DNA from: Francisella sp. SYW-9
GTDB taxonomy: Bacteria; Pseudomonadota; Gammaproteobacteria; Francisellales; Francisellaceae
DNA length: 64,000 bases
NCBI RefSeq assembly: GCF_008711465.1
Contig: NZ_VXKQ01000008.1
Coordinates: 165,952-229,951, forward strand
Direction of reading: 5' to 3'
The position numbers and the translations under genes were made by a program. Under the pieces are notes generated by a model. That model made no database searches and was not told the origin of the DNA. It saw only the letters and a program-made list of their open reading frames with translations. Of this stretch, positions 54,704 through 58,637 are shown piece after piece. Each line of letters begins with the position of its first letter. Position 1 is the first letter of the stretch.

Positions 54704-55654
54704 CTACCAGCGCTGAAAAATTTCCATGCAAATGTCCTTTATAGCTTTGCCTGTTTGTTTAGCTTTTTCAACATCTTGAGCATGAATATTTGTCAATACA
54801 ATGGTATCAAATGGTCGAGTCTTATACTCAGGAAGTAAGTTGACTATTTCATAGTTTTCCTCACCAGGCTCATCAAAATATTTTTCTGGAAGTAACCCTA
54901 TTCCATAACCTAAACGCACAAGATCTCTTAACTGCACTAACACATCTGTTGCAAAGTTACCATTGATTACAACTGAGTGCTCTTTATTATCATCATCAAG
55001 TAGATTCCAGCGAGTTTTTGACCAAAGATTTGTATATAAGCAGTTATGATCTTTAAGATCTTCTAATTTCTTTGGTTCACCATGCTGTTTTAAATACTCT
55101 CTAGAAGCAAAAATCTTCATAATATCTGAACGTCGTGTAACAATATTCCAGTGATCAGGATTTATTGCATGAAAGAACAAATCTTCTATTATACAAATAT
55201 CAAAATGTTGAATAAAGTTTTTAAGCTTAAGAATTTCACGCTCCATCATATTAAATGTATATGTTGATAGCTCAATTTTAATATTTGGAAATTTTTCTTT
55301 TAGCTTTGGATAAATGTTATAAATAAAAAAGTATGAAAAACCAATAGACAAAAATATTTTGATAGGAATATTCTCATCATCAAGGTTGCTGATATTACCC
55401 TCCACATCATCTAATACTTTTTCAATACTCTCAAGATGGTTTAATGTCGAGTTATATAAAATTCTACCGGCAGAAGTTAGCTCAATACCTTTGTTTGAGC
55501 GTGTAATTAATTTCTTACCAATTTGATCTTCAAGTTGTGAAATTTGTCTTGAAATAGTTGTATGTGCTATTCCAAGCACTGCGCTTGCTTGCGAAAAAGA
55601 ACCACTATTTATTAATGTTTTAAAAAAAAATAAATTATCGTAAACTTTCTTCAT
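54704..55654 (-). CDS. LysR-family transcriptional regulator
   Basis: A 316-residue protein with an N-terminal helix-turn-helix (FFKTLINSGSFSQASAVLGIAHTTISRQ, shown here with its 28 positions trimmed to SFSQASAVLGIAHTTISRQ, about 17-35) and a substrate-binding-like effector domain from about 95. SIGFSYFFIYNIYPKLKEKF and the IIEDLFFHAINPDHWNIVTR region fit the group whose effectors are often quinones, aromatic acids or fatty acids, but no ligand can be named. It lies downstream of the peptide operon on the same strand, 92 bases after the small membrane protein gene, and could regulate it. Confidence 0.88.
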   Translation of the reverse strand: MKKVYDNLFFFKTLINSGSFSQASAVLGIAHTTISRQISQLEDQIGKKLITRSNKGIELTSAGRILYNSTLNHLESIEKVLDDVEGNISNLDDENIPIKIFLSIGFSYFFIYNIYPKLKEKFPNIKIELSTYTFNMMEREILKLKNFIQHFDICIIEDLFFHAINPDHWNIVTRRSDIMKIFASREYLKQHGEPKKLEDLKDHNCLYTNLWSKTRWNLLDDDNKEHSVVINGNFATDVLVQLRDLVRLGYGIGLLPEKYFDEPGEENYEIVNLLPEYKTRPFDTIVLTNIHAQDVEKAKQTGKAIKDICMEIFQRW

Positions 55655-55746
55655 CTCTATATTATAAGAAAATTATATAGAGTAATAATATCAACTTATT
55701 CTATGTTTTGTTTGCTATTCTTGAAAATTAACTACAAAAAATGACT

Positions 55747-55941
55747 TCAGAAACATATTATAAATTTCCTAGATAAATTTATAATATTGGTTATAGCTAG
55801 CTTAAACCTATAAAAATAGATTATAAAAGCTGCTCGATAAAACTTTAATAAACGATATATAAAAAGTGCTTCTAAGACTATAAAGGTTCCTGTTAAAAAG
55901 CACATTGATGCAATAAATAAAGCTATAACCCAACTACGCAT
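55747..55941 (-). CDS. Small membrane protein of the peptide operon
   Basis: A 64-residue protein from ATG 55941, preferred over an upstream ATG at 55977 because AGAGG lies eight bases before it and it overlaps the previous stop by 8 bases, as in coupled genes. It has one strong transmembrane segment (WVIALFIASMCFLTGTFIVL) followed by a second hydrophobic and basic stretch rich in Tyr, Phe, Arg and Lys (YRLLKFYRAAFIIYFYRFKL). It is unrecognised. As the last gene of the operon it could serve export, anchoring or immunity. Confidence 0.6.
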   Translation of the reverse strand: MRSWVIALFIASMCFLTGTFIVLEALFIYRLLKFYRAAFIIYFYRFKLAITNIINLSRKFIICF

Positions 55942-56452
55942 TTCTAATACCTCTAGATAAAATAAAATATGCTCCAATATCTGGTCTTTTGCTTGTTATT
56001 GACTTTGGTAACTGATGTTTTGTTAGTTCCATATCTTTACATGACTTAAATAAACGTATTAAAAAATTACTCTTCACATTACTAACTAACTTTTTTGAAG
56101 GGAGTAAATGAAAAGTGTTAATATCTTTATATAACTTATAAAATACAGTCTGAGTAAATTTATATTTATAAATAAACATCATCATTGGCATTCTATATTT
56201 TGGTTGAAATGCATGAAGATGTAATTCACATTGAGAGTTTCTACTATCAATATTTTTAACTAAAACATAACCCACAGGGGTATCTTTTTCATCTGTAAAA
56301 ACAATATGATCACATTTTAACTCAAATATTCTTTGATAAAACTTCTCTATAGTTAATGGGCTCTGTATATAGGCTAAAATACTTTTAACTAATTTATCTG
56401 TATAACTAGTTCTCTTAGTATCATGATAAAGTATAGTATAGTTTAGACTCAT
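55934..56452 (-). CDS. Uncharacterised protein of the peptide operon
   Basis: A 172-residue soluble protein with AGGAG well placed before ATG 56452. I do not recognise it. The middle (DHIVFTDEKDTPVGYVLVKN, then CELHLHAFQPKYRMPMMMF) has the look of a GNAT acetyltransferase: a beta-bulge strand with GYVLV followed by a basic loop, but the acetyl-CoA P-loop is not clear. It lies 26 bases downstream of the WH...HH protein and overlaps the membrane protein gene, so it is part of the same operon. A role in peptide tailoring is possible (inference). Confidence 0.6.
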   Translation of the reverse strand: MSLNYTILYHDTKRTSYTDKLVKSILAYIQSPLTIEKFYQRIFELKCDHIVFTDEKDTPVGYVLVKNIDSRNSQCELHLHAFQPKYRMPMMMFIYKYKFTQTVFYKLYKDINTFHLLPSKKLVSNVKSNFLIRLFKSCKDMELTKHQLPKSITSKRPDIGAYFILSRGIRNA

Positions 56453-56478
56453 TTTACTCTCCTAGGATTAGTTTTTAT

Positions 56479-56910
56479 CTAAATAGCTTCTGCAACATCA
56501 TTACCATATGCCCAGACTCGATCAATATACTGCTCACCCCAATCATCCATTAAAAATAATAACTGCTGTTCAAAAACTTCTGGATCCATAGGTTCGCCTT
56601 TAAATGGATTCTCTGGATTATGGTGAACACACTCAATACCAAATAACTCCTTTGACATCGTCAAGTAATCTCGTGTATGTAAAATGTATGCATGCCAAAC
56701 TTCATCTAAGTAATTCATTGAATCCATCATAAATGATTTTTGTTTCTCTAAGCGCCATCTTTGTGCAGAGTAAAGCCAACACATAAAATCTGTAAACCAC
56801 TGTTTTGCCTGTGCTCTATTCATTTTTAGCTCTTTCATAACTCTCAGAATTACTGACTCATTATTCCAGTTTAAAATATCAGTCTTTAATGGAAGTTTTA
56901 TTTTTTGCAT
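56479..56910 (-). CDS. Small WH...HH motif protein of the peptide operon
   Basis: A 143-residue soluble protein. NYLDEVWHAYILHTRDYLTM (67-86) and LFGIECVHHNPE (89-100) resemble the vDxvWHxxIL-T-xY...FG..iHHxP motif of the glycine-rich-domain-protein-like (GRDP) group. His73, His78, His96, His97 and Asp69 could form a metal site. The N-terminal half is helical and basic; the tail is acidic (EQQLLFLMDDWGEQYIDRVW). It begins 46 bases after the last peptide gene and is the first larger gene of the operon, which makes it the best candidate for a peptide-binding or modifying protein. The reaction is unknown. Confidence 0.65.
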   Translation of the reverse strand: MQKIKLPLKTDILNWNNESVILRVMKELKMNRAQAKQWFTDFMCWLYSAQRWRLEKQKSFMMDSMNYLDEVWHAYILHTRDYLTMSKELFGIECVHHNPENPFKGEPMDPEVFEQQLLFLMDDWGEQYIDRVWAYGNDVAEAI

Positions 56911-56956
56911 ACTACTGTCACCCTATTTTTTTACTAGTCTTTTACTTCTATAGTTA

Positions 56957-57040
56957 CTAAGCCGCGCACATTATTCCACAAGCTTTGCAAGATAGTGATA
57001 TATTTGATGTTAGTCTTTTCAGATTTTCAATTGTTCTCAT
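56957..57040 (-). CDS. Peptide gene copy A, divergent core
   Basis: A 27-residue peptide: leader MRTIENLKRLTSNISLS, then CKACGIMCAA with three cysteines. ATG 57040 follows GGGAG. It keeps the leader pattern (M-[KR]-T-I-x-N-L-K-[KR]-L-T) of copies C-F but has a different tail. It is the array member nearest the WH...HH gene. Too short for standard gene finders. Confidence 0.75.
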   Translation of the reverse strand: MRTIENLKRLTSNISLSCKACGIMCAA

Positions 57041-57071
57041 TTTTTTCTCCCTTTTATATTTAAAAAAACCT

Positions 57072-57131
57072 CTAAACTCCACATGAAACAACGTTACAAG
57101 ATGCTATCTGCGTAGTTAATTTCTTTAAGTT
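57072..57131 (-). pseudogene. Peptide gene copy B, start lost
   Basis: The frame NLKKLTTQIAS followed by CNVVSCGV ends in TAG at 57072-57074. Upstream, where the other copies have a ribosome site and ATG AAA ACG, the sequence runs straight into spacer DNA with an in-frame stop at 57132-57134. A deletion joining the spacer to the AACTTAAAG of the gene would explain this. The core differs from both A and C-F but keeps C-x4-C-G. Confidence 0.7.
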
Positions 57132-57152
57132 TTATTCTTTTATCAGCTCTGA

Positions 57153-57230
57153 TTAACCTCCACATGGTGGAACGCTACATGCTGCTAATGTTTGTGATGT
57201 TAGTTTCTTTAAGTTCTTGATCGTTTTCAT
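57153..57230 (-). CDS. Peptide gene copy C
   Basis: A 25-residue peptide: leader MKTIKNLKKLTSQTLAA and core CSVPPCGG. ATG 57230 follows AAAGGAGAAATAAA, an excellent ribosome site. It repeats with a period of about 132 bases with copies D-F. The absence of a hydrophobic signal segment means it is not a Sec substrate; a leader/core layout as in RiPP precursors or a small metal-binding peptide fits better. Confidence 0.82.
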   Translation of the reverse strand: MKTIKNLKKLTSQTLAACSVPPCGG

Positions 57231-57284
57231 TTTATTTCTCCTTTTTTAACTTTTCTCTAAATCTTTATTCTTTATCAGCTCTGA

Positions 57285-57362
57285 TTAACCTCCACACGGT
57301 GGAATGCTACATGCTGCTAATGTTTGTGATGTTAGTTTCTTTAGGTTCTTAATCGTTTTCAT
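57285..57362 (-). CDS. Peptide gene copy D
   Basis: A 25-residue peptide identical to copy C except for the core, CSIPPCGG (Val to Ile). ATG 57362 with the same AAAGGAGAAATAAA site 132 bases from the previous copy. Some third-base differences from its neighbours leave the protein unchanged, which speaks for selection on the peptide. Confidence 0.82.
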   Translation of the reverse strand: MKTIKNLKKLTSQTLAACSIPPCGG

Positions 57363-57416
57363 TTTATTTCTCCTTTTTTAACTTTTCTCTAAATCTTTAT
57401 TCTTTATTAGCTCTGC

Positions 57417-57494
57417 TTAACCCCCACATGGTGGAACGCTACATGCTGCTAATGTTTGTGATGTTAACTTCTTTAGGTTCTTAATCGTTTTCAT
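57417..57494 (-). CDS. Peptide gene copy E
   Basis: A 25-residue peptide with leader MKTIKNLKKLTSQTLAA and core CSVPPCGG. It is the same protein as copy C though several codons differ (for instance AAG for AAA at Lys9, TTA for CTA at Leu10, GGG for GGA). ATG 57494 with the shared ribosome site. Confidence 0.82.
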   Translation of the reverse strand: MKTIKNLKKLTSQTLAACSVPPCGG

Positions 57495-57547
57495 TTTATT
57501 TCTCCTTTTTTAATTTTTCTCTAAATCTTTATTCTTTATTAGCCTGC

Positions 57548-57625
57548 TTAACCCCCACATGGTGGAACGCTGCATGCTGCTAATGTTTGCGATGTTAACT
57601 TCTTTAGGTTCTTAATCGTTTTCAT
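57548..57625 (-). CDS. Peptide gene copy F, first in the array
   Basis: A 25-residue peptide with leader MKTIKNLKKLTSQTLAA and core CSVPPCGG. Synonymous changes relative to E include TCG at Ser12 and TGC at Cys18. ATG 57625 with AAAAGGAGAAATAAA upstream. As the promoter-proximal copy it is preceded by unique rather than repeated sequence. Confidence 0.82.
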   Translation of the reverse strand: MKTIKNLKKLTSQTLAACSVPPCGG

Positions 57626-57681
57626 TTTATTTCTCCTTTTTATTTTCTTTTCATCTTTCAACCTCTCAGCTGATAATGAGT

Positions 57682-57687
57682 ATTATA
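57682..57687 (-). promoter_or_regulatory. Candidate -10 box for the peptide operon
   Basis: A perfect TATAAT on the minus strand, 57 bases ahead of copy F. The -35 region 17-18 bases further (around TTCCAG) is poor, so an activator may be needed. The next 400 bases upstream have no gene on this strand. Confidence 0.45.
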
Positions 57688-58088
57688 TGAGGCATGACTC
57701 TTATCTGGAATACTATAAAATGAACACTGCTGTGCAAAAATGCATAAGCAATCATAGGACTAGAAAAGATAGAGGAAATAAAAATAGTAATCTTTTACTT
57801 AAAATGAATATCCAAACTATCCTTAAAAACTAATTTATTAATATCTGATAATTTACTATTTAAATTTCAAATTACTTTTCACTGAATATAGCTAATAGTT
57901 AAGATAAATATTGCTGTAAAAAAGTTTTCTTTCTCAATCACACCGTTAGAATAAATTGTATAAAATAGATTTTTAATTCTAGTTAAAGAATTATATTTTG
58001 GAAATACTTCTAGCATAAAAGTCATTTATAAATCTGACTAAATATAAGTATTCAACAATACAATTAAACATACAACCGGAGAATAGGT
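57688..58088. other. Gene-free AT-rich stretch between the peptide operon and the PAS remnant
   Basis: About 400 bases with only short frames lacking ribosome sites (the longest, on the plus strand from 57721, would encode 37 residues). It must contain the upstream part of the peptide-operon promoter and the promoter of the PAS gene, whose start is preceded by CCGGAGAATAGGT. Nothing else is visible. Confidence 0.5.
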
Positions 58089-58437
58089 ATGACTGAAACA
58101 GAAATACATTCACTACTACTTGACGCTCACCCGCACCCTATCGTCTTTGTTGATAAGGACTATATTATTAGATACATGAACAAAAAAGCGAAATTTTGGT
58201 ACAATCAAGAACGCGGATACCCTAATATGATTAGTAAGGTATTATTCGAAGGCCATAATAAGCAAGATCCGAAGAAGTTATAAAAAGCATGCCGTAGCAT
58301 TAAAGAATCATGCAGCTGAACAGTTCCTATATGTGCATAAAGGATTAAATATGCGTCTATATATGACTGCTGTTAGAAATGATAAAGGTGAATTTTTAGG
58401 ATTTTTTGAAAGGTTTGAAGGTAACTATACTTTATAA
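58089..58437 (+). pseudogene. Frameshifted single PAS-domain protein
   Basis: The first 64 residues (MTETEIHSLLLDAHPHPIVF, then VDKDYIIRYMNKKAKFWY) are the N-terminal half of a PAS sensor. The frame stops at 58281-58283 just after DPKKL. Shifted by one base, it resumes as SYKKHAVALKNHAAEQFLYV, HKGLNMRLYMTAVRNDKGEF and LGFFERFEGNYTL, ending at 58437. The two halves form a normal PAS protein of about 115 residues with one extra base around AAGAAG. The ligand and partner are unknown. Confidence 0.7.
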
Positions 58438-58521
58438 AAGCATAACTTAAACAACTAATAGCTTCTATAATATAAATCTGGACTTTAAAGTATATATTTG
58501 GAAAACATTTCTTGAAAAAGG

Positions 58522-58637
58522 TCTGACGACTACCTACTTTCACCTGGGCAAATGCCAGACTATCATCGGCGTGAGCCCGTTTCACTTCTGAGTTCGGAAT
58601 GGGATCAGGTGGTTCCAGACTGCTATCATCGTCAGTG
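58522..58637 (-). rRNA. rrf: 5S ribosomal RNA, isolated copy
   Basis: The minus strand contains the universal 5S core CCATTCCGAACTCAGAAGTG followed by AAACG and GCCGATGATAG. The terminal helix pairs CTGACGA near 58636 with TCGTCAG near 58523, giving about 115 bases, and a T5 run follows the 3' end. No 23S or 16S rRNA adjoins it; the next upstream gene is an MFS transporter. Francisella genomes are known to carry one 5S gene more than their 16S/23S count, which fits. Confidence 0.93.

Follow-up and report, generated by a model that had tools for sequence, protein, structure and literature searches.

Does a tandem array of genes for peptides of 25 or 27 residues in Francisella sp. SYW-9 encode the substrates of a small protein whose gene follows it, and is that pairing peculiar to Francisella? 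The array lies on the minus strand of the 64,000-nucleotide stretch analysed here (the window; positions 165,952 to 229,951 of contig NZ_VXKQ01000008.1), where four genes for a 25-residue peptide, a decayed copy and a gene for a 27-residue peptide are followed by genes for a 143-residue protein with a DxxWH...HH signature (hereafter the WH protein), a 172-residue protein and a 64-residue hydrophobic protein. An earlier note on this DNA had described five intact peptide genes and a decayed one in tandem, followed by three small proteins; we found all of the open reading frames (ORFs), the spacing of ~132 nucleotides, the ribosome sites and the three proteins on the same strand, while the array proper stops at 57625 and not at 57687. 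The note had also tied the WH system to the Francisella peptide. This was too narrow, and because the WH family pairs with many unlike Cys-ended peptides, that family, rather than the Francisella array, is the finding.

Our best reading is that the system resembles those producing ribosomally synthesised and post-translationally modified peptides (RiPPs) and includes an uncharacterised family of maturation partners, the modification, its chemistry and its activity being what we infer. The window peptides are probably precursors, their C-terminal Cys core being predicted to be modified by the WH protein.

Linkage of WH genes to Cys-ended peptides

In the class, 33 of 369 genomes encode a relative of the WH protein; in one order the count is 90 of 143, and in a sample of genomes from the phylum it is 20 of 299 (these three genome sets overlap). 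Relatives also occur in 27 plasmid records, 25 of which are from Escherichia. Judging by its Legionella-named relatives, the order is probably Legionella-type; the hosts of the family are Francisella- and Legionella-type bacteria, Neisseriales, a Bacteroidota plasmid and E. coli plasmids.

Among the first seven relatives (loci L008-L014), a short Cys-ended ORF lay directly upstream of the WH gene in four (L010-L013); L009 starts near a contig end, the upstream Cys ORF of L008 was recognised only later, and none was seen upstream of the WH gene in L014. Linkage was scored as an upstream ORF on the same strand, of 18-95 residues and with at least two Cys among its last 14, and was compared with the same measure for other ORFs of at least 100 residues in the same loci (n = 350) and for shuffled regions (n = 1210). 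The expectation of the earlier note that peptide and WH genes would occur together in other genomes was borne out: such an ORF lay upstream in 88 of 125 non-fused WH loci, compared with 33 of 350 control ORFs and 174 of 1210 shuffles (Fisher p = 3e-38, a value that overstates certainty, since the rule was chosen with the first examples already known and related genomes do not count as independent). How large the effect is does not depend on the p-value. When at least three Cys were required, the counts were 25/125 for WH loci, 4/350 for control ORFs and 23/1210 for shuffles.

The linked peptides fall into several families. The two largest have either a KIIKKIV-type leader with the core CGPGTC or CRPCTS (20 loci) or a MSKEEMICRIVR-type leader with a near-terminal CC (31 loci), and their ratios of amino-acid-changing to synonymous variation (pN/pS), counted on the commonest length of each, were 0.28 (18 of 20 peptides) and 0.29 (13 of 31 peptides), respectively. 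Other families have a leader ending in CKCCR, or a longer leader and the core CSGxCxSGxC upstream of GRDP-like WH proteins, and single cases were seen in Neisseriales (L013) and Aureibacter (L075). The CC-ending peptides, of 25-28 residues, are paired with the WH gene in a distinct branch from Legionella-type genomes (L008 and its kin among L078-L154).

Within the genus, a comparison of ten copies of the 25-residue peptide gene from three genomes gave 16 synonymous changes and 2 that alter an amino acid, where 24% of changes were expected to be synonymous (p = 1.2e-8). The peptide is thus conserved as a protein, under selection at the protein level, as the earlier note had proposed. The pN/pS of the three downstream genes, between three genomes, was 0.06-0.25, and this together with the synonymous excess makes the array more than chance. 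Chance ORFs were rejected on the linkage excess, the pN/pS of 0.28-0.29 and the synonymous excess (16 vs 2).

To see what else accompanies the pair, one same-strand ORF per locus (at least 70 residues and at most 300 nucleotides downstream) was compared with Pfam, for which 69 loci qualified. DotU was the next downstream ORF in 18 of the 69, and no other family appeared more than three times among the 25 of 38 families listed; therefore, the loci have no shared enzyme. Noted alongside the CC-peptide branch, the DotU neighbour hints at a link to a secretion gene cluster.

Fused WH-Cys proteins and conserved residues

By a rule that takes three or more Cys within the final 35 residues as a tail, 21 of the 151 WH proteins examined carried a Cys tail of their own, although a few of these may be accidental. 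The enrichment of fused tails was weak in the first set alone (11/136 vs 16/507, p = 0.015). The fusion is clear in the E. coli plasmid protein, which ends in SVCGCSGKGCGAGCSCNSR, and in L168, which ends in SCGPGTCGASTNCQG; the L168 tail contains SCGPGTC, which the free Legionella-type peptides show as WCGPGTC. On a tree of 128 rows, the fused state changed at least nine times, with seven changes forced by well-supported branches, and from these repeated changes the WH domain and its Cys partner seem to have been joined or separated again and again. These fusions bear on whether the short ORFs are instead regulatory leader ORFs that sense cysteine in the manner of an attenuator and yield no peptide product. 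Such elements would also be short, Cys-codon ORFs just upstream of a gene, but the protein-level selection along the ORF, the tandem copies and the fused forms led us to reject this explanation as very hard to credit.

Six residues of the WH protein (D69, W72, H73, T79, Y82 and H97) are invariant across 71 selected rows. A protein 97% identical to it (P0001) carries a precomputed PF27765 assignment, an accession known here solely as such a label on relatives; the Pfam library that we searched returned no PF27765 and gave no match for the window WH protein. Pfam and NCBIfam together gave nothing above cut-off for the cluster products. The GRDP-like family PF07173 (formerly DUF1399) has the WH...HH signature in common with the WH protein, and of the relatives scanned L009 alone exceeds its cut-off (23.2 vs 22.7), with L010 and L011 just missing it and the window protein giving no match. 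No solved homologue was found by a PDB sequence search, and comparison of the WH model by Foldseek and VIA-align 2 gave no convincing structural match; this is not evidence of a new fold. Judging by titles, most of the DUF1399 papers found are plant studies. Searches of open-licence PMC papers brought up no function for the bacterial GRDP-like/PF27765 branch and nothing on the peptide-WH pairing or on PF27765, and subscription papers and preprints may differ. We treat this PF27765/GRDP-like family of predicted maturation partners as uncharacterised; it has a Pfam accession, and some of the superfamily reaches into PF07173.

Exporters, metal and known peptide systems

The loci L167/L179, the E. 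coli plasmid locus and the Aureibacter locus belong to one supported clade (100/90) and have telling neighbours. In the gammaproteobacterial L167/L179, three tandem Cys precursors with double-glycine leaders are accompanied by two WH genes, an HlyD gene and a gene for a 723-residue C39 peptidase ABC exporter, and in L167 the WH genes stand between the precursors and HlyD. On the E. coli plasmid p4_4.4 (L074, 376-3601), the WH-Cys fusion is found with an ABC exporter and a JmjC protein. Bacterial homologues of one JmjC set occur in RiPP-like contexts, according to PMC12710340. Part of the E. coli cluster is present in 88 of 5426 complete E. coli genomes, and at least 80% of it in 29, every place being plasmid-borne; the E. 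coli plasmids with the WH-Cys fusion are mobilizable and 7.9 kb in size. On the Aureibacter plasmid pAT2 (L075, 1-10399), the peptide-WH pair is flanked by CobN/ExbB/DUF2149-type genes on one side and a gene for a TonB-dependent receptor on the other, possibly a setting of metal or haem uptake. From this gene content, the peptide is likely to be exported at two of these loci (L167/L179 and the E. coli plasmid), while the Aureibacter locus may serve to take up a metal complex.

The Aureibacter setting raises the alternative that the Cys peptides are themselves ligands for copper, zinc or iron and undergo no covalent change, with the WH protein serving as a metallochaperone or loading partner. 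Many of the cores are rich in Cys (CKCCR, CSGxCxSGxC, CGGCGG), as this explanation would have it, and bufferins are copper-chelating Cys peptides (PMC12452194). However, the Francisella 25-residue core and two frequent Legionella-type cores hold just two Cys, and the double-glycine leaders and C39 exporter suggest processing and secretion, so we consider metal buffering of this kind unlikely.

If the peptides are instead matured, the WH protein would recognise the leader, or its own tail when fused, and would modify or close the Cys core through D69, H73, Y82 and H96/H97, a bound metal probably taking part. The GNAT-like 172-residue protein might then acylate the peptide, either to cap it or to protect the producing cell, while the 64-residue protein might act in the membrane, helping export or immunity. 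Because two relatives have an exporter gene in the cluster, the product may leave the cell, where an antimicrobial or metal-binding role is possible. In some RiPP pathways, GNATs cap the product or provide self-immunity. The same genes could be arranged around a toxic unmodified peptide, with the WH protein as its immunity protein or antitoxin; the adjacency and regular order of the genes, the GNAT and small membrane protein (both compatible with self-protection) and the exporters of two relatives would fit, but the repeated fusion of WH and Cys tail in one protein, as on the E. coli plasmid, is hard to reconcile with immunity, and the invariant Asp, Trp, Tyr and two His also speak against it, making this role improbable.

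More tentatively, and with slightly more doubt than belief, we propose from these patterns that the DxxWH...HH domain defines a new and widespread class of peptide-maturing metalloenzymes in Pseudomonadota and Bacteroidota. Such enzymes would act on C-terminal Cys motifs either in trans, on single or tandem mini-peptides, or in cis, on their own tails. They would be the basis of a new RiPP class, to which a microcin-like product of small E. coli plasmids, so far unrecognised, would belong. If the proposal is true, a family without described function becomes a peptide-maturing family with many substrates, the interchange of trans and fused forms supplies ready pairs of enzyme and substrate, and the chemistry becomes testable in a laboratory strain by way of the E. 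coli plasmid version.

We compared the system with known peptide systems. RiPP precursors are short, with a conserved leader, a distinct C-terminal core and protein-level selection, and the window peptides have all of these; the WH gene, linked to a precursor in most loci, is the predicted modifying partner, although it lacks a convincing fold match. The three non-peptide cluster proteins gave no match to known RiPP enzyme models, and the genome has no match to PF02624, the YcaO family of thiazole/oxazole RiPPs. The earlier statement that no known RiPP enzyme is nearby therefore holds for the cluster, and for YcaO in the whole genome, but a DUF692 (MNIO) protein is encoded on another contig. 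MNIO bufferins resemble the present system in having Cys-motif precursors adjoining a small dedicated gene set. In contrast with the bufferin and TIGR04222 peptides, those of the window have no evident signal peptide by eye, and there is no MNIO gene in the cluster, the genome's only PF05114 match lying on contig C76 and the array on C3. On C76 (L172, 1130-2993) we observed a bufferin-like operon of a Cys precursor, the DUF692/MNIO gene and a third gene resembling a partner. We rejected an MNIO-modified window peptide on the grounds that the genome's MNIO has its own operon and Cys precursor on another contig, although it may act in trans on the window peptides. In TIGR04222 proteins a larger domain carries a Cys-containing tail at the C-terminus (PMC12452194), and TIGR04222 gave no match in the 14 WH proteins scanned (the window protein, seven relatives and six further proteins).

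Class II microcins and other double-glycine bacteriocins share double-glycine leaders, HlyD and a C39 peptidase ABC exporter with L167/L179. The five window peptides differ from them in that no double glycine precedes the core and their cluster lacks a C39 exporter, the genome's only PF03412 match being on contig C76. This sole C39-peptidase match (161845-162198, L182) lies in a frame of 708 residues and is possibly a peptide exporter. A weak match of the 25-residue peptide to NF047798 'bacteriocin-like protein' (E 0.55) was taken as chance.

The Francisella locus and its surroundings

The N-terminus of the window peptides is constant and leader-like, with the Cys core at the C-terminus (Table 1). 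The core that the earlier note had described as shared is indeed common to the 25-residue copies, with one Val-to-Ile variant, but the 27-residue copy has a distinct one. The 25-residue genes are spaced by 131, 132 and 132 nucleotides, and a purine-rich ribosome site (GGAG or GGGAG) stands 6-7 nucleotides upstream of the ATG of every intact peptide gene.

Table 1. Features of the peptide locus in window coordinates
Feature	Position	Strand	Evidence
25-residue peptide gene 1 (leader MKTIKNLKKLTSQTLAA, core CSVPPCGG)	57548..57625	-	ORF and ribosome site AAAGGAG
25-residue peptide gene 2	57417..57494	-	ORF and ribosome site
25-residue peptide gene 3 (core CSIPPCGG)	57285..57362	-	ORF and ribosome site
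25-residue peptide gene 4	57153..57230	-	ORF and ribosome site
Decayed peptide copy, start region missing	about 57072..57130	-	Intact counterpart in relative locus L006
27-residue peptide gene 5 (core SCKACGIMCAA)	56957..57040	-	ORF and ribosome site AAAGGGAG; counterparts in L006 and L007
143-residue DxxWH...HH protein, predicted maturation partner	56479..56910	-	ORF; all-helical model, predicted local distance difference test score (pLDDT) 88
172-residue protein, predicted GNAT-like acyltransferase fold	55934..56452	-	Low-confidence model, pLDDT 55
64-residue hydrophobic protein	55747..55941	-	ORF; pN/pS 0.09-0.25

The peptide, the WH protein and the 172-residue protein are each present in the same 3 of 17 genomes of the genus. 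The arrays of the two relatives hold six and three copies, with an intact copy in L006 where that of the window is decayed. By the WH protein the closest named relative is Francisella sp. LA112445 (97% identical), and by the 172-residue protein it is Francisella uliginis (88% identical).

The 172-residue protein, called unknown in the earlier note, indeed has no Pfam match above cut-off, to GNATs or otherwise, but a GNAT-like fold is predicted: its low-confidence model (pLDDT 55) matched 99 PDB chains at E <= 0.001, and among the 50 matches listed all are N-acetyl- or acyltransferases. A weak model match suggesting a toxin subunit (E 0.087) was taken as chance. For the 64-residue protein, its hydrophobic character is consistent with a possible role in the membrane, in export or in self-protection.

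A consensus scan of positions 55600-58100 gave 9 promoter-like sites compared with 15.8 in shuffles, and no intrinsic terminator was found in the same interval. Judging by their order on one strand and their spacing, the peptide genes and the three downstream genes may be transcribed as one unit. Next after the gene for the 64-residue protein is a LysR-type gene. On the other side, a small ORF divergent from the array (58089-58437, plus strand) appears in two pieces, and L006 has a longer ORF at that place. A 5S rRNA gene lies at 58521-58636 on the minus strand, about 0.9 kb upstream of the array, and in L007 translated pieces resembling, by eye, those of the window's 5S rRNA region are found upstream of the array.
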